Below, in pieces: positions 3 through 40,221 of a DNA stretch of 40,560 bases (positions are counted from its first letter, which is position 1; each line of letters opens with the position of its first letter). Source of the DNA: Chitinophagaceae bacterium (GTDB taxonomy: Bacteria > Bacteroidota > Bacteroidia > Chitinophagales > Chitinophagaceae); assembly GCA_025363355.1 (NCBI GenBank), contig JANYEB010000195.1:1-40560 (forward strand), written 5' to 3'. The notes under the pieces are model-generated. The model worked only from the letters and a program-made list of their open reading frames with translations, was not told the origin of the DNA and did not search any database. Made by a program: the position numbers and the translations under genes.

Positions 3-701
3 GAAATTAAAGGATTACATTGTAAAATTTATTTTAATGAAAAAGAAGCAATCATTTCATCAATGAATTTGCTCTTATCTTCAGATACAAGTTCATTGGA
101 TATTGCTTTAAAAACAACTAATGAAGAAGAATATCAAAGTATTTTAAATTTCTATAAAAGATATATTTCTAAAGAATTCGAGGAATACAACAAAATAATT
201 AATGAAACAAAGATTTTAGAGGGTAACATTATACATAATATCAGAACAATTGTAACAAAACAAAAGGGTTACCACGTCGGGGGTATTAGAGATATATTTT
301 TTGCAGAAGATTCATTGATAGTGACTGCTCATTATAGCACTTATAGGTTTATAATAAAAAAAATAAATGATAATAATCATCTTTTTTGTATAACTCAATT
401 AACACAGCACGAGAGTGAAAATATTGAATCCAATATAAAGCAGTTTTTTAAAGATATTGATATGGATTTCAGTTGGGAAAATAATAGTACAGGACTATCA
501 GTATTTCAAGGCATTTTTAGGCAAAAAGTTGATAGTTCAAATCTACAAGATTTACAAGTAAATGAAAAAGATTTAATTGTGAAAACAGTATTAACTTTTA
601 TTGGCTGTAGTGAGGCATATATTGATATTATTAATTCAAATGATAATGAGGTTTATTCTCAGAGAGTTGCTTTGATGAGATATTCCCCCTACTCATCGTA
701 G
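3..701 (+). CDS. Hypothetical protein, 5' end outside window
   Basis: The reading frame is open from base 3 through the first internal ATG at 63 to the TAG at 699-701, so the gene starts upstream of the window and at least 232 residues are visible. I do not recognise the family. The visible part has no signal peptide and no membrane segment, is rich in Asn, Ile, Glu and Lys, and looks like a soluble cytoplasmic protein. It is followed by a hairpin-rich stretch and then by the 21-bp repeat array, so it may belong to an accessory block. That association is inference only. Confidence 0.6.
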   Translation, partial: EIKGLHCKIYFNEKEAIISSMNLLLSSDTSSLDIALKTTNEEEYQSILNFYKRYISKEFEEYNKIINETKILEGNIIHNIRTIVTKQKGYHVGGIRDIFFAEDSLIVTAHYSTYRFIIKKINDNNHLFCITQLTQHESENIESNIKQFFKDIDMDFSWENNSTGLSVFQGIFRQKVDSSNLQDLQVNEKDLIVKTVLTFIGCSEAYIDIINSNDNEVYSQRVALMRYSPYSS

Positions 702-10169: not shown

Positions 10170-11525
10170 TTAAACTCTTTTTCCTTTCCATTTTCCACTC
10201 TTGATGTACAAATACGATGGTATCAGCATCACACCCCAATATAACCACTCACTTCCCCAACCAATAGCAATACTCATATTCAACTTTTCAAGTGTTGTAT
10301 AAACATAAATACAATAAACTGTGATAGCCATAAACTCAATTGCTAAATTAATTTTTGTTTGTCCAGTGCCTGTTACAGCATTTAACCAAACCACACTAAT
10401 ACTCATTAAAACCAATGCTGTTGAAACTACTCTTAACACTGGGATTGCAGCATTTATAAAATCATCTCCCTGACCATAAACACTTAAAAATATGTGAGGA
10501 AATATGTTTAAAATAACACAAACAATCAATGCAAAAAGAAAAGAAAGTTTCATAATTTTATAGATGAGTTCTTCTACTCTATTTTCTAATCCTTGCCCAA
10601 TAATATTGCTTACCATTGTATTGGTTGTTGATGCAAATGCCCAGGTAACACATCCAAAAAAACCAAATACATTTCTCATTACGTTGGATATAGCTCCAGC
10701 CTGACTTCCATGATGTTCGTTAAGAATATAAAAAAATTCCCAAGCAATAATACTTAGTAAATGCTGGCCAATCAGTGGTGCACTTTGCGTGAGAATTAAT
10801 ACTGCATTGCTTTTATTCCATTGCCAGTTTTTAAATAGTTGCAGTTGTTTACCAATTCCTTTGTAATGAATTACTAAAAAAATAACAAACAATCCCATTC
10901 CTTCTGCAATAACAGATGCATAAGCTGCACCATTAAATCCCAGTTTTGGCAAACCTAGTTTGCCAAATATTAATCCATAATCAAGAACAACATTAGTAAT
11001 GGCTTCTGCTGCTGTACCATAAATCAATAATTTAGTTTGATTTGTGCCAACCAATAATGCATTTCGCATTTGATATAAATACAAAAAGAACAATCCCCAA
11101 ATTCTGATATTTAAAAAACTCACGGCCATTTTAACATCTTCAGAATTTTTTAATGACCAGCTAAAAACTGTAGGCGTAACAAATGTTGTGATGATGATTC
11201 CTAGAATTGCCATCACTATTGCCAACCTAATTCCTTGAGAAAATAAGCTGCCAATAGCATCTATTTTATTTTCACCAGCTCTTCTAGAAATAAGCATTTG
11301 CAAGCCATTATTCAATCCTATTCCTACAACTGCAAAAATTAAGTAATAAACTCCAGTGATACCTGCAACAGAAAGTGATTGTTCACCCAATTGTCCTAGA
11401 AAAATATTGTTAGTTACAAAGTTTAGTTGTGGCACAATGATAGCAGCAGCTATTGGCAATGTAATAGATAGTATTTGTTTATTGGTAATTTGAACCCTAT
11501 AGTCTTTTATCTCACTAGTTTGCAT
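10170..11525 (-). CDS. MATE-family efflux transporter
   Basis: The 451-residue protein has about twelve membrane helices in two halves. The N-terminal half opens with [38 protein letters not shown], typical of MATE proteins, and [18 protein letters not shown] follows. Family members export drugs or metabolites in exchange for Na+ or H+. The ATG at 11525 is preferred to the TTG one codon upstream. It is divergent from lepA, with about 60 bp between the two start codons. Confidence 0.93.
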
Positions 11526-11574
11526 CAAACAAAACTAATTGAATTTCCCTTTCTATCTATTACACGCTCAACCC

Positions 11575-11582
11575 TATCTTTG
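11575..11582 (+). promoter_or_regulatory. -7 box for lepA, possibly leaderless
   Basis: TATCTTTG is a perfect TAnnTTTG match and ends 6 nt before the lepA ATG at 11589. The start of transcription would fall at or within a few bases of the ATG. No TTG is found 17-23 nt upstream, so the -33 element is missing or weak. Confidence 0.45.
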
Positions 11583-11588
11583 CCCCTT

Positions 11589-13373
11589 ATGAAGAATATC
11601 AGGAATTTTTGTATTATAGCCCATATTGATCATGGCAAAAGCACTTTGGCAGACAGACTTTTAGAAGACACCAAAACCATTGGTAGCAGAGATATGCAGG
11701 CACAGGTTTTGGATGATATGGACTTGGAGCGTGAAAAAGGAATTACCATTAAAAGCCACGCCATTCAAATTAATTATCCCTACAAAGGCGAAGAATATAT
11801 TCTAAATTTAATTGATACACCAGGTCACGTTGATTTTAGTTACGAAGTAAGCCGTGCATTAGCTGCTTGCGAAGGTGCATTGCTTTTGGTAGATGCTTCG
11901 CAAGGTATTCAAGCACAAACCATCAGTAATTTATATTTAGCTATTGATAACAATTTAACGATCATTCCTGTTATTAATAAAATTGATATGGATGGTGCGA
12001 TGATACCAGAAGTAACCGACCAAATTGTTGATTTAATTGGTTGTAAACCCGAAGAAATTTTGCACGCAAGTGGCAAAAGTGGTATTGGTATTTTTGAAAT
12101 ATTGGCAGCTATTATAGCAAGAATTCCCGCACCTAAAGGTGACCCACAAGCTCCTTTACAAGCTTTAATTTTTGATAGCGTTTTCAATAGTTTCAGAGGT
12201 ATTATCATTTATTATAGAATAATGAATGGCACTATTACCAAAGGACAAAAAGTAAAGTTTATTGCAACTGGACAAGAGTATGATGCAACAGAAATTGGTG
12301 TGTTGAAATTAGGAATGGAAGCCAAGAACCACGTGGGTTGTGGAGATGTTGGATACATTATTACTGGTATAAAAAATGCCAAAGAAGTAAAGGTAGGAGA
12401 TACCCTTACACAAAGTGGCAGTATGGTTGAAAGAATTAATGGTTTTGAGGAAGTGAAGCCAATGGTATTTGCAGGTATTTTCCCTGTAGAAACAGATGCT
12501 TTTGAAGAATTGAGAGATTGTATGGAAAAGTTACAATTGAATGATGCTTCTTTAACATTTGAGTTAGAAACCAGTCAGGCATTAGGTTTTGGCTTTAGAT
12601 GTGGTTTCTTGGGATTGCTGCACATGGAGATTATTCAAGAAAGATTAGAACGTGAGTTTAATCAAACTGTAATTACCACTGTACCCAATGTTAGTTTTAT
12701 TGCATATACCACAAGAAAAGAAAAAATTATAGTAAATAATCCTGCTGAAATGCCTGATGGTACTAAGCTTGACAGGATTGAAGAGCCTTATATTAAAGCA
12801 CAAATTATTACACAAAGCGATTACATTGGGAATATTATGACATTATGTTTGGGCAAAAGAGGTAATCTTTTAAATCAATCATACATTACTCCAACACGTG
12901 TGGAGCTTACGTTTGAGATGCCTTTAACAGAAATCGTATTTGATTTTTACGATAAATTAAAATCTCAAACTCGTGGTTATGCAAGTTTTGATTATCATCC
13001 AATTGGCTACAGAGATGCAGATATTGTGAGAATGGATATTATGTTGAATGGGGAAAAGGTAGATGCTTTAGGTTCATTGATTCATAGAAGTAGAGCCCAA
13101 GATTTTGGAAGAAAATTGTGTGAAAAACTAAAAGAATTATTAACACGTCAACAGTTTCAAATATCTATTCAGGCTGCAATTGGTGCTAAAGTTATTGCAC
13201 GTGAAAACATTAGTGCAATGCGTAAAGATGTTACTGCAAAATGTTATGGTGGTGATATTAGTCGTAAACGTAAATTACTTGAAAAACAAAAAGAAGGTAA
13301 GAAACGTATGAGACAAATTGGTAACGTAGAAATTCCACAAGAAGCATTTTTAGCTGTGTTGAAGTTGGATTAG
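11589..13373 (+). CDS. lepA: Elongation factor 4 (LepA)
   Basis: This is a 594-residue translational GTPase that acts on ribosomes. The GTPase motifs are AHIDHGKST (about 9-17), the switch I region with [23 protein letters not shown] and NKIDMDG. The C-terminal LepA-specific domain includes [23 protein letters not shown], which is diagnostic. The frame stays open to 11475, but the [19 protein letters not shown] start at 11589 matches the family and sits behind a -7 box. An upstream start would run into the MATE gene start. The length is normal for the family (about 600). Confidence 0.98.
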
Positions 13374-13400: not shown

Positions 13401-13442
13401 ATTCATAATTCATAATTCATAATTCATAATTCATAATTCTCA
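13401..13442. repeat. (ATTCATA)n heptamer array before miaA
   Basis: Five exact ATTCATA units (13401-13435) are followed by a variant ATTCTCA. The array fills the gap between lepA and miaA and puts an in-frame TAA at 13420-13422 just before the conserved N-terminus of MiaA. Three or more units always include a TAA in every frame, so no start upstream of the array can read through it. Confidence 0.95.
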
Positions 13443-14423: not shown

Positions 14424-15377
14424 ATGCATTCTATTCTATTACAATTGCCTACTATTGTTAGCTTTTGGTGGGTTCTAGTTTTACTTTTTATTGTTTTTAG
14501 TGGACTTGTAACTGTTAATCAAGGCACTATTGCTGTGGTTACAATGTTTGGTAAATACCAAAGAATATTACGTCCTGGTTTGAATTTCAAGATTCCTGTG
14601 CTAGAGCAAGTTTACAAAACTGTGAGCATTCAAAATCGTTCTGTGGAGCTAGAGTTTCAGGCTGTTTCTATTGACCAAGCAAATGTTTATTTTAAAAGTA
14701 TGTTGCTGTACAGTGTAATCAATCACGATGAGGAAACGATTAAAAATGTTGCCTTTAAATTCATTAGTGATAAAGATTTAATGCAAGCATTAATTAGAAC
14801 TGTTGAAGGCAGTATTCGTGCTTTTGTAGCTACTAAAAAGCAATCAGAAATTTTATTGCTTCGCAGAGAAATTATTGAATTTGTAAAAGATCAAATTGAC
14901 CAATCTTTAGAAGAATGGGGTTATCATTTACAAGACCTTCAAATCAATGATATAACTTTTGACAAAGCCATTTTAGATAGTATGAGTCGTGTTGTGGCTA
15001 GTCATAATTTAAAAGCTGCTGCAGAAAATGAAGGACAAGCTTTATTGATTACTAAAACTAAAGCTGCCGAAGCTGAGGGTAATGCAATTAAGATTACCGC
15101 TGAAGCTGAAAAATCTGCTGCACAGCTACGTGGACAGGGGGTTGCATTATTTAGAGCCGAAGTTGCAAAAGGTATGAGCCAAGCTGCTGAAGAAATGAAA
15201 CAAGCTAATCTTGATACCAATGTCATTATGTTTAGTATGTGGACAGAAGCTATTAAAAACTTTGCAGAATTGGGTAAAGGAAATATGATTTTTCTTGATG
15301 GCAGCCCAAATGGTATGGAAAATACAATGAAACAAATTATGGGTATGGTAAAGTTAAAAGAGGATGGCAAAATGTAA
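14424..15377 (+). CDS. SPFH/Band 7 domain membrane protein
   Basis: The 317-residue protein has one N-terminal membrane helix (about 10-32), then an SPFH domain starting GTIAVVTMFGKYQRILRPGLNFKIPVLEQV. An Ala/Glu-rich coiled-coil follows (about 190-255, with KAAEAEGNAIKITAEAEKSAAQLRGQG), as in stomatin/prohibitin proteins. These form membrane-bound oligomers that organise microdomains or control proteases. The exact partner here is unknown; no NfeD gene is next to it. The exbB-like gene follows after 77 nt on the same strand. Confidence 0.92.
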   Translation: MHSILLQLPTIVSFWWVLVLLFIVFSGLVTVNQGTIAVVTMFGKYQRILRPGLNFKIPVLEQVYKTVSIQNRSVELEFQAVSIDQANVYFKSMLLYSVINHDEETIKNVAFKFISDKDLMQALIRTVEGSIRAFVATKKQSEILLLRREIIEFVKDQIDQSLEEWGYHLQDLQINDITFDKAILDSMSRVVASHNLKAAAENEGQALLITKTKAAEAEGNAIKITAEAEKSAAQLRGQGVALFRAEVAKGMSQAAEEMKQANLDTNVIMFSMWTEAIKNFAELGKGNMIFLDGSPNGMENTMKQIMGMVKLKEDGKM

Positions 15378-16138: not shown

Positions 16139-16225
16139 TTGAATTATGAGTTATGGATTTATATATTCAACTCTAATTTATTAAACAAAACATTCATAAG
16201 CCATAATTCATAACTCATAATTCAA
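16139..16225. repeat. Inverted heptamer repeat between exbB- and exbD-type genes
   Basis: A 17-nt arm TTGAATTATGAGTTATG (16139-16155) is exactly complementary to 16209-16225. Both arms are made of 7-nt units (TGAATTA/TGAGTTA on the left; CATAATT/CATAACT/CATAATT on the right). The element fills most of the 100-bp gap, would form a stem with a 53-nt loop in the message, and ends 4 nt before the exbD-type start codon. Confidence 0.9.
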
Positions 16226-28063: not shown

Positions 28064-28141
28064 TTTTAATAATTTGTTGCACAATGATAATAGGAATTCT
28101 ATTAAATGTTTTAAGAAGTTGCTATTATATTCATCAATAAT

Positions 28142-28174
28142 AAAAAAACCTCCGCTCTAAGAATAAAGCAGAGG
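28142..28174 (-). terminator. Rho-independent terminator
   Basis: Read on the minus strand, CCTCTGCT, a 10-nt loop, AGCGGAGG (one G-U pair) and then seven T follow the stop codon of the 28202-28918 gene. Confidence 0.8.
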
Positions 28175-28201
28175 TGTATTATATGCCAGAACCAAACCCT
28201 T

Positions 28202-28918: not shown

Positions 28919-28989
28919 AAATGTATATTTTAATTGTTAAGAAAAAACTGGTTTATCTACGCCACAATTGCTGTATATATTTTTTGATT

Positions 28990-29199
28990 TTTAAACTTTT
29001 TTGCTTGTTTTTTATCATCCCTGCTGTGGTCGGCTGCCGATGTATTCAGGAATTTAAAATTCCTGTTATGTTTTTCTGCCGATGTGTACTGTTTTTTAAA
29101 ATTCCTGTTATGGTAGGCGACCGCTCTGTATTGGTATTTAAAATTCTTGCTATAGTTTTCTGCCTACTTATACTGGTTTTTTAAATTCTTGGCTTGGGA
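28990..29199. repeat. Second 21-bp array with 42-bp alternation, 10 units
   Basis: Ten units of exactly 21 nt start at 28990, 29011, 29032, 29053, 29074, 29095, 29116, 29137, 29158 and 29179. The core of one type is TTAAAATTCCTGTTATGG; the other type has a TGCCGATGTGTACTG core. From 29032 on the two alternate, giving a 42-nt period, so TTAAAATTC or a close variant recurs at 29054, 29096, 29138 and 29180. A 19-nt palindrome (CAGGAATTT-A-AAATTCCTG) lies at 29047-29065. The frame stays open through the array (28921-29184), which I take as a by-product. From 29200 to 29438 I see no feature. Confidence 0.85.
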
Positions 29200-29438
29200 T
29201 GCTGCTACTATTCTTTAAATTTTTTCTATTGGATACTTCTCTTCTAAAAATCTTTTGCTAAAATATGAGGTGTTGGGGAAATGGCAAAAGAATTGGTTGT
29301 TAAAGTTTTGTGAAAGGTTAAAATCTGCTTGTTTGTTGACAGATGAATAAATGTAGTTATAATGAAAACATTGATATTTGAATATATTTAAGGCAGCATT
29401 TTTTATGAATTCAGCATCTTAGCTATAGAAATTGTATA

Positions 29439-30923
29439 ATGAAACAACTAACTACTTTAATCTTTTTTTTTGCAATCATAAATAGTGCAGGTTCTCAAAC
29501 CCAAATTTATAACTACTTAAATCATACATCAGCTTGGGGTGTGCATAGTGGTGGAACTGATTTCTCTAATAATGAATATAGGTCGCATTATAGATACTAT
29601 ATGAATGGCGATACAGTTATTGCATCAAACTTATATTACAAACTATTTAAAGCAGGTGTTGACAGTGTGTATCATTTAACAACTAACACCTCTTCTGCTA
29701 CTTTTTATGATAAATATGTTGGTGCTTTAAGAGAAGATAATAAATGCTTTTATTTTATTTTTTCGAATGATTCGGTAAGCATTAAACTATTTGATTTTAA
29801 TTTAAATGTCACTTATCCAAATTTAAGTCCTGTACCAAATATGTATGCAAATGATGGTTGTGCAAAGCCTTTAGTTGATTTCAATACTACGTTTAATCAA
29901 TATTATTTAGGAACAATAGGCAAACACTTATTTACATTCTCTCAACCATTTCTATGGAACTTATATGAGGGTATTGGTTCAACAAAAGATATTTTAGAAC
30001 AGGGCTCAATGTGTGGAATTGGGTTTGAATACAATTCTTACTTAAGTTGTTATTCAAAGGATAATAATTTAGTTATTATTGACAATACCTTTCCTTGTAA
30101 TCTTACGCTAAATGCCGGAGGAAGTAATTGCACTGCAAAATTTTGTTATAATGCAGTGGATAGTGGCGGATATATTTATACAACTTTGTATAATATATCA
30201 TCAACCCAAGATTCTATTATTAATTCAACTTGGAATTTGGCGTCAGTTAGTTTAATGATAAACAATCCTAGTTTTACTTACTATGCACCATATTGGGATA
30301 CAGCTTACCCATACAGTTTGTTTATACAAACACAAAGTGGTTGCCAGGCAAGTTATTTTAACACAATAAAAATTGGAACTAACTGTACCTTTTTACCACT
30401 AAATTTTGTTTCATTTAATATTAGCAATTCTAACAATAAACCACATTTATTTTGGCAAACAAATAATGAAATTAATATCAAACATTTTATTATTCAAAGA
30501 AGTATTGATGGAAAAGATTTTATTGATATTGCAAAAACATTAGCAACGAATAAGCTGAAAAATCAATACGATTTTATTGATGAATTTGCTAATGAAAACA
30601 ACAGTATCAACAAATACTATTACAGATTAAAATATGTTGAAAGTAATGGTACAAATAGCTTTAGCGATATTCAATCAATAGTTTTATCGGCAAAAAGCAA
30701 GATCACTATATCTCCAAATCCTGCTAAAAATTATGTTACAATTAATACTACAAATGCAAGAGAAATATTGTTACAAGATTATTTTGGAAGAATTATAAAA
30801 AAGCAAACAGCAACAAATACATCAACAAAAATTAATTTACAAAATGTAAAAGCAGGAATATATTTTTTACAAATAATTTATAAAGATAGTTCTGCTGTAA
30901 GTGAGAAATTAGTTGTAGAGTAG
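29439..30923 (+). CDS. Secreted protein with T9SS type A sorting domain
   Basis: The 494-residue protein has a signal peptide (MKQLTTLIFFFAIINSAGS) and a long beta-rich region with Cys/Asn content and no known catalytic motif. A Bacteroidota-typical segment follows (FLPLNFVSFNISNSNNKPHLFWQTNNEINIKHFIIQRSIDGKDFIDIA), then the type IX secretion C-terminal domain (ISPNPAKNYVTI, DYFGRIIKKQT, LQNVKAGIYFLQIIY, VSEKLVVE). It should be exported across the outer membrane. The cargo function is unknown. Confidence 0.9.
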   Translation: MKQLTTLIFFFAIINSAGSQTQIYNYLNHTSAWGVHSGGTDFSNNEYRSHYRYYMNGDTVIASNLYYKLFKAGVDSVYHLTTNTSSATFYDKYVGALREDNKCFYFIFSNDSVSIKLFDFNLNVTYPNLSPVPNMYANDGCAKPLVDFNTTFNQYYLGTIGKHLFTFSQPFLWNLYEGIGSTKDILEQGSMCGIGFEYNSYLSCYSKDNNLVIIDNTFPCNLTLNAGGSNCTAKFCYNAVDSGGYIYTTLYNISSTQDSIINSTWNLASVSLMINNPSFTYYAPYWDTAYPYSLFIQTQSGCQASYFNTIKIGTNCTFLPLNFVSFNISNSNNKPHLFWQTNNEINIKHFIIQRSIDGKDFIDIAKTLATNKLKNQYDFIDEFANENNSINKYYYRLKYVESNGTNSFSDIQSIVLSAKSKITISPNPAKNYVTINTTNAREILLQDYFGRIIKKQTATNTSTKINLQNVKAGIYFLQIIYKDSSAVSEKLVVE

Positions 30924-36332: not shown

Positions 36333-36337
36333 AAAAA

Positions 36338-36432
36338 TGGCAGGCTACTCACATCGCACCGCTCAACCGCTTGTCCTTGCTGTATTCCTACCCTGGGGAG
36401 TTTCAGCAGGAGCTGGTCGTGTAAGACCTGCC
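36338..36432 (-). ncRNA. ffs: Signal recognition particle RNA (4.5S-like)
   Basis: The RNA has the hallmark apical helix on the minus strand: CAGG, GUA, GGAA, UAC, AGCA at 36395-36378, which is the symmetric-loop and GGAA tetraloop site that binds Ffh. The ends pair (GGCAGGU near 36432 with GCCUGCC near 36339), giving a 95-nt hairpin. A T-tract follows. A perfect promoter lies just upstream. It guides membrane and secreted proteins to the Sec system as part of SRP. Confidence 0.9.
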
Positions 36433-36436
36433 GCTG

Positions 36437-36466
36437 CAAATGTAGGGGGAACTTGTTTATTGACAA
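36437..36466 (-). promoter_or_regulatory. Promoter of the SRP RNA
   Basis: On the minus strand, TTG (36466-36464), 19 nt, then TACATTTG (36444-36437). Both elements match the Bacteroidota consensus exactly and place the transcript start at about 36432. It is the cleanest promoter in the window. Confidence 0.75.
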
Positions 36467-39600: not shown

Positions 39601-40221
39601 GATATGAAGCATCAATTAGAAAAGGTGGAAGACTTGATAAAAAGTGAAGTAAACGTAAAAGAATTTGTTTACATCACTGAAACCGAAGGCATCATTAAAA
39701 AGAAAGTAAAAGCTAATTTTAAAACGCTTGGAGCAAAATTGGGAGCCAATATGAAAGAAGCTGCTGCCCAAATTGCCAATTTTAATCAACATCAAATTGC
39801 CGAATTAGAACAAAAAGGAGAGATTGAACTCAAACTTCAAACTTCAAACTTCAAACTTGAATTAGTTGATGTTGAGATAACAGCAGAAGATATTCCTGGC
39901 TGGTCTGTTGCTTCAAAAGGTGCACTAACAGTGGCTTTGGACATTGTGATAACAGAAGATTTACAAAAGGAAGGCAATGCCCGTGAGTTCGTAAATCGTA
40001 TTCAAACCATCAGAAAAGAAAGTAATTTTGAACTTACTGACAAGATAAGTGTTAGTATTGTGGAGAACAAAAATTTGGCAGTTTCGATAAATGAATATAA
40101 AAACTATATTTGCGGCGAAATATTAGCAGAAAATATTACTTGGGTACAAGATATTGATGTGGCTGCTGTTGAGATAGAAGTAAATGATACGCTGCTTAAA
40201 GTGTTGGTAACTAAAAATTAA
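36637..40221 (+). CDS. ileS: Isoleucyl-tRNA synthetase (eukaryotic-like type)
   Basis: This 1194-residue class I synthetase charges tRNA-Ile. The HIGH region reads PPSANGMPGIHHVISRTLKD (GIHH at 57-60), and KMSKR is near 741-745, the pattern of the IleRS2 branch that is often mupirocin-tolerant (known for the family, not tested here). The editing domain includes TTPWTLPSNLGL and GDFVTTEDGTGIVHTAPAFGADD. Between about residues 270 and 365 the editing domain carries a Glu/Asn/Lys-rich stretch (LEKNKISSSLTKEEINLRNA, then NAEVWNQIILEKNRQLELGN) that I do not recall in relatives. The C-terminal region includes a 7-nt repeat (39826-39860). Confidence 0.96.
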   Translation: MSSKYKEFSGLNLPSIEKEILAKWEAENAFQQSVDLREGATPFVFYEGPPSANGMPGIHHVISRTLKDLVCRYKTMQGFQVKRKGGWDTHGLPIELGVEKELGITKEDIGKKISIEDYNQKCREAVLRYKKEWDDITTKMGYWVDLKNPYITYENNYIESLWWILKQLYNKNLLYESVSIQPYSPAAGTGLSSHELNQPGTYKDVKDTSAIAQFKAIRNEKSQFLFDASKGEDIYFLAWTTTPWTLPSNLGLTIGGNIEYVLVKCENHFGLIINMVVAKALLFSLVYKLILEKNKISSSLTKEEINLRNANAEVWNQIILEKNRQLELGNTNAELEALVKVKDANLVYVDLIDAYLGSKLEEIQYEQLLPFEENKIDNPNSFKVLLGDFVTTEDGTGIVHTAPAFGADDYRVGKKYDIGILTMVDRRGKFLSGIKDDVFLYGDEYVKEAYLTDAEKEVEFQNQKQILELHGKVKDLKKYLSVDDRIVLKLQEEGKLFKKEKYDHNYPHCWRTDKPILYYPLDAWFIKTTALKDRMVELNKTINWKPKSTGEGRFGNWLENMVDWNLSRSRYWGTPLPVWKTEDGEEQICIGSIAELNEGIRKANEILGGDVNKHYLHEGILDLHKPFVDDIILVSESGKPMQRVADLIDVWFDSGAMPYAQHHFPFENKELFANNYPADFIAEGVDQTRGWFYTLHAIGSLIKESVIEELEKANLPTDKVDGRAYKTVVSNGLVLDKNGVKMSKRLGNIVNPFETIEKFGADATRWYLVTNASPWDNLKFDLAGIQEVQRKFFGTLYNTYQFFVLYSNVDGFAFKEAYIPLQQRPEIDRWILSSLNTLIKKCTASMDDYEPTAAGRFIEEFVDEHLSNWYVRLCRRRFWKGEYEQDKISAYQTLYECLETVCRLIAPISPFFADAIFQNLNAVTNRFNASSIHHIAYPKSNETIVDTALEERMQLAQDTCSLVLSLRKKVNIKVRQPLQKVMVPVLNMDMKHQLEKVEDLIKSEVNVKEFVYITETEGIIKKKVKANFKTLGAKLGANMKEAAAQIANFNQHQIAELEQKGEIELKLQTSNFKLELVDVEITAEDIPGWSVASKGALTVALDIVITEDLQKEGNAREFVNRIQTIRKESNFELTDKISVSIVENKNLAVSINEYKNYICGEILAENITWVQDIDVAAVEIEVNDTLLKVLVTKN
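39826..39860. repeat. In-frame heptamer array inside ileS
   Basis: GAACTCA, three exact AACTTCA units and AACTTGA run for 35 nt. They encode LKLQTSNFKLE just ahead of the conserved DVEITAEDIPGW segment. The frame is intact. Confidence 0.9.

Follow-up and report, generated by a model that had tools for sequence, protein, structure and literature searches.

Locus-private 42-bp repeat arrays with helical phasing upstream of a family of small basic proteins in Bacteroidota

In plasmid iterons with Rep and in centromere-like arrays with ParB/ParR-type proteins, helically phased repeats adjoin the gene of the binding protein. Type III toxin-antitoxin systems (ToxIN, CptIN, and TenpIN) have a tandem array of a fixed unit, varying in copy number, directly upstream of one protein gene. 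Repeats of the ToxIN family are nearly constant in length while diverging in sequence (PMC5086642), and closely related type III toxins have been reported with conserved antitoxin repeats (PMC5086642). The palindromic repeats of REP/BIME or REPIN systems with RAYT (TnpA-REP) adjoin a protein gene and recur at other genomic positions, among them intergenic sites at the 3' ends of genes. Intergenic direct repeats that are candidate regulatory sites have also been reported in a few Bacteroidetes, namely the TAACTGA repeats (PMC4679880).

The locus discussed here resembles each of these in part. Like iterons and Par arrays, loci of the gene family that we call F1 carry helically phased repeats beside a protein gene, but F1 has no Rep or Par homology, its homologues are absent from the plasmid collection, viral contigs, and phages searched, and there are several loci per chromosome, each with its own repeat sequence. 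The TAACTGA repeats differ in being a single fixed 7-bp unit common to genomes, found mostly near start codons and without a dedicated protein family. A search of the open-access literature covering the array, repeats of 21/42 bp, and DUF6261 (a second family discussed below) found no description of such loci, which is weak evidence of absence. The F1 family with its private array looks like an undescribed module consisting of a repeat plus its own partner protein.

The window, meaning the whole stretch of 40,560 nucleotides that was analyzed, comes from a Chitinophagaceae bacterium and contains the features collected in Table 1. The array boundaries given there are those of a looser extension; Tandem Repeats Finder places the array at 29053-29188 with a period of 42, 3.2 copies, and a score of 139. 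Self-identity at lag 42 is 0.57 over 28969-29220 (z of about 8.9-9.6 against local composition), compared with just 0.38 at lag 21, where the background is about 0.31. The sequence unit is therefore 42 bp, and the 21-bp register is a matter of symmetry alone. The first-pass annotation had described ten units in exact 21-nt register with a 42-bp alternation. The 42-bp period holds up, the 21-bp sequence unit does not, and the first two claimed units (28990-29031) are weak; what survives of the 21-bp register is the second dyad at half a period that emerges when arrays are pooled. Taken alone, the dyad of the window array is marginal (P of about 0.07 against column shuffles). A coding origin of the array was ruled out by 41- and 43-bp periods and by stop codons in most frames. 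A search of Rfam gave no match at the array, and units of this type are contiguous, lacking the spacers of a CRISPR array.

Table 1. Coordinates of the F1 locus and its neighbor in the window
Feature	Positions	Strand	Remarks
Intrinsic terminator of the F1 orphan gene	28140..28175	-	CCTCTGCTTTATTCTTAGAGCGGAGG, then a T run
F1 orphan gene, 238 aa	28202..28918	-	Basic, pI 9.8; mostly helical by low-confidence prediction
Spacer from array to F1 start codon, about 75-76 bp	28919..28993	-	No terminator-like site, as across the family
Array of 42-bp units, about 5.5 units	28994..29226	.	+ strand consensus about TTTAAAATTCCTGTTATGGTTTTCTGCCGATCTGTACTGGTT
Divergent neighbor with Por secretion C-terminal sorting domain	29439..30923	+	Also beside the G001 orthologue, 73% identity

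Arrays of such pitch are a feature of the source genome, as in a 331-kb sample of it the lags 21, 42, and 63 are enriched with 9, 6, and 3 matches; other lags mostly have 0-1, and lag 33 has 3. Another 21/42-bp array is found in the window at 879-1320, between convergent genes at 63-701 (+) and 1349-2104 (-, DUF1223). It had been likened to the array upstream of F1, and the two do share the 21/42 pitch, but a common type is not supported; no gene of the four array-linked families (F1, F2, F3, and DUF6261) lies beside it.

Since the F1 gene is read from the minus strand, the array lies on its upstream side, as had been claimed, and the gene's own terminator was confirmed. The same terminator hairpin recurs 3' of a paralogue on contig C3 and of the orthologue in genome G001. 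The divergent neighbor is probably not part of the module. Two more F1 copies are present in the source genome, one on C188 and the frame-broken one on C3; the latter (L029, G000:C3, 9080-9780) is split over two frames, and its array is still recognizable. Relatives of F1 occur in about 2% of the sampled Bacteroidota genomes, and the paralogues are mostly lineage-specific duplications in which cassettes of gene plus array duplicate within genomes. The F1 proteins are basic (median pI 9.3), and no relative was found in Pfam, NCBIfam, PADLOC, PHROGs, or the PDB. A fold model built from two sequences reached a pLDDT of 44, too low to be usable.

The linkage between gene and array was scored for all F1 homologues with usable upstream DNA, an array being counted when it showed a lag of 41-43 with a z of at least 5 no more than 800 bp upstream of the start codon. 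Across Bacteroidota, 36 of 39 homologues carry such an array, compared with 13 of 553 control ORFs; these 13 include F1 and DUF6261 genes as well as neighbors of such genes, and the controls came from several genomes covering part of the F1-bearing ones. For the first 37 homologues, 34 of which pass, Fisher's exact test against the controls gives P = 5e-41, a value that overstates independence as the homologues are related. Both homologues added later, one of them from another class, also pass (z of 5.6 and 13.7). The best lag at loci with a z of at least 6.5 is 42 in 21 cases, 41 in 6, and 43 in 3, with no other lag represented. Three homologues fall below the threshold: the C188 copy of the source genome, G525a, and the truncated G272c. 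The prediction that homologues of the orphan gene would have a periodic array beside them is thus borne out, and of the suggestion that array and gene form an undescribed locus type the linkage stands; the 21-bp sequence unit and the common type with the 879-1320 array are not supported.

Arrays of F1 loci comprise three to ten units, and the distance from array end to start codon is usually 40-380 bp. In 27 of 39 arrays (F1 and DUF6261 together) the best dyad exceeds all 30 column shuffles (P = 0.00). Each unit contains one dyad and a weaker dyad half a period (21 bp) away. When the 39 arrays are pooled, a second dyad axis 20.5-21 bp from the first has mean z values of 0.96 and 1.35 (s.e. 0.3), against values near 0 at most other offsets. 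The Bacteroidota promoter motif TAnnTTTG was observed 9 times downstream of the arrays, compared with 4.6 expected, an excess too small to be decisive. Nor does a sigma-54 promoter between array and gene unite the loci: it is present in just a few of those in G649 and G914.

Despite their shared pitch, arrays of different loci are unrelated in sequence, with a single short blastn match among 496 pairs. The paralogues G1030a and G1030b encode proteins that are 82% identical and retain 64% identity over the proximal 80 bp, yet their array units show no more similarity than shuffled units do. In G001, the orthologous locus is preserved in its flanking DNA and its divergent neighbor gene, but its array has a different sequence with similar copy number and position.

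Arrays of the same type are also found away from the gene. In G649, querying the whole genome at the DNA level with paralogue f's array recovered three remote arrays of the same unit (on C5, C117, and C114), and a sample of that genome contained, on C14, a sibling of paralogue c's array. The dyad cores, AGGGCTTATACCAACTGGTATGTA for paralogue f and CGGGCTGCCCAAGTATA for paralogue c, recur at a spacing of about 42 bp while the filler between them differs. In the DNA examined, the remote G649 arrays have no F1, F2, F3, or DUF6261 gene beside them; for the C117 array, near a contig end, this DNA covers one side only. This C117 array (L169:254-804) precedes by about 100 bp a gene that, judged by eye from its sequence, encodes an apparent type III restriction-modification methylase. 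The window array has one related array in its own genome, on C194 near a contig end, at 68% identity over 141 bp. Cognate palindromic repeats at unlinked sites are thus seen for the f and c arrays of G649 and for the C146 and C194 arrays of the source genome. Whole-genome DNA searches found no set of dispersed single units, just one to three remote arrays per type. With one long array counted twice, 0 of 15 stand-alone arrays lie between divergent genes, compared with 95 of 344 control intergenic regions, and 6 of 15 lie between convergent genes, compared with 46 of 344 controls. A 21/42-bp array at L028:3990-4400 is flanked on one side by a 293-aa gene with a carboxypeptidase-regulatory-like domain and on the other by 5S-rRNA-like sequence at the contig end.

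Three further families are linked to arrays of this kind. DUF6261 (PF19775) resembles F1 in being a Bacteroidota protein of about 245 aa whose gene is preceded by a 41/42-bp array (6 of 8 members at a z of at least 5, the other two weak), but it is not basic (median pI 6.4). No sequence homology between it and F1 was detected: hhalign assigns the pair a probability of 2.6%, and no F1 member is listed with a match to PF19775. DUF6261 loci with an array are L016:14065-14868 (array 14976-15190), L142, L143, L145, and L147. Family F2 (248 aa, with an SETGHAKNVANF motif) has a 21-bp-period array in most homologues, mostly just past the stop codon; examples are L023 (array 11242-11540, gene 11548-12294) and L112-L130, and in G030 the array is upstream. 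Family F3 is small and HTH-like by eye, with arrays upstream at lags of 41-44 or 63 (22/44 in L141); its loci include L108:10965-11279, L087:18063-18383, and L134-L141. Homology of F1 to F2 or F3 was likewise looked for and not detected.

We give an even chance to the proposal that an F1 locus consists of a small basic protein and, upstream, a tandem array of its own DNA sites, acting in cis and in trans. We infer that F1 itself is the ligand of the array and binds double-stranded DNA. The 42-bp unit would correspond to four helical turns bearing one dyad, the weaker second dyad being offset by two turns. F1 dimers would then all occupy the same face of the DNA and could assemble cooperatively along the array, each member of the family having its own site sequence. 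Action in cis might be autoregulation or the formation of a nucleoprotein patch at the F1 gene, and the existence of sibling arrays implies that F1 would act in trans as well, at three remote arrays for one G649 paralogue and at one for the window array. DNA as the bound partner is favored by the constant pitch, close to four turns, by the basic proteins, and by the core conserved in trans. The first-pass suggestion of a repeat and its binding protein is in this way supported indirectly, by the dyads, the helical pitch, the basic character of the proteins, and trans siblings with a conserved core; a separate array-linked family that is HTH-like by eye (F3) is also in keeping with it. Against the model, F1 has no homology to known DNA-binding folds, the DUF6261 proteins are not basic, and three homologues fall below the array threshold. 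The least comfortable fact for the model is the replacement of arrays between paralogues that are 82% identical, as it demands very fast co-evolution of specificity, and the avoidance of divergent (promoter) regions by stand-alone arrays fits simple gene regulation poorly.

Other explanations must be weighed against this DNA-binding model. The layout of F1 loci, in which an array of fixed-length units directly precedes a single gene at 36 of the 39, is that of a type III toxin-antitoxin-like RNA module, where transcribed array units would bind and restrain the protein encoded downstream. Constant repeat length with diverging sequence is also a property of the ToxIN family (PMC5086642), and private arrays would provide cognate-only neutralization. 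Such a module is nevertheless unlikely. Between array and gene, 0 terminator-like sites were observed over 5,458 bp (0.5 expected), while the same detector found terminators 3' of 20 of 44 genes. No match to ToxN, CptN, TenpN, or another toxin family was found with Pfam or PADLOC. Mismatches in the dyad arms are of the G:T (G:U) type in 42 cases and of the A:C type in 62, and since the former are not in excess there is no signature of RNA pairing on the gene strand, which fits a DNA site. In addition, close toxins are reported to keep their antitoxin repeats (PMC5086642), whereas the G1030a and G1030b arrays match at the level of shuffled units, and remote F1-type arrays exist without the gene. 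With terminator, toxin homology, and repeat conservation all lacking, membership in the type III systems fails.

It is also improbable that F1 replicates in a REP/RAYT-like manner, multiplying or moving its own palindromic repeats so that the remote arrays would be their descendants. Siblings at unlinked sites with a conserved dyad core, the duplication of gene and array cassettes, and the way in which stand-alone arrays shun divergent and favor convergent regions, as harmless insertions would, all speak for it, but a Y1/HUH or other transposase matches 0 of 34 members in Pfam, and F1 arrays are fixed tandem 42-bp structures with few remote copies and no dispersed single units. On the transposase and on copy number, membership in the REP/RAYT class fails. 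Recognition of shape in place of sequence, for instance of extruded hairpins or bent DNA at fixed pitch, would explain the free turnover of sequence, as period and dyads are kept while the sequence is replaced; the remote G649 siblings keep the sequence of the dyad core while the filler changes, which points to sequence recognition and makes the shape reading rather doubtful. Finally, the array may serve another factor, with the orphan gene as a frequent neighbor or cargo. In its favor, arrays of this pitch accompany several protein families, and many have no member of the four families next to them, yet polarity and proximity are fixed at 36 of the 39 F1 loci in many Bacteroidota families, and we regard this last explanation as very unlikely.

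Extending the DNA-binding model beyond F1, we lean slightly toward a Bacteroidota-wide class of at least four families (F1, DUF6261, F2, and the HTH-like F3), each with a locus-private array of phased dyads and forming independent recognition pairs that act in cis and, in certain genomes, also in trans. The linkage offers a testable function for DUF6261 and the unannotated F1 family and a rule for one class of periodic intergenic repeats in Bacteroidota. Should binding be confirmed, these loci would be natural examples of a small protein paired with an array of its own, in which a very fast-changing site is set against a slow-changing protein, and would provide a new system in which to study the co-evolution of DNA recognition.

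Elsewhere in the window, a Bacteroidales small SRP RNA (Rfam RF04183) is encoded on the minus strand at 36334-36440. Short tandem arrays of 7-bp units occur at 13401-13439, 16192-16224, and 39830-39858, two of them built from ATTCATA and one from TCAAACT. The contig end (40267-40560) holds a 66-bp repeat rich in lysine and alanine codons that resembles a histone H1-like tail.
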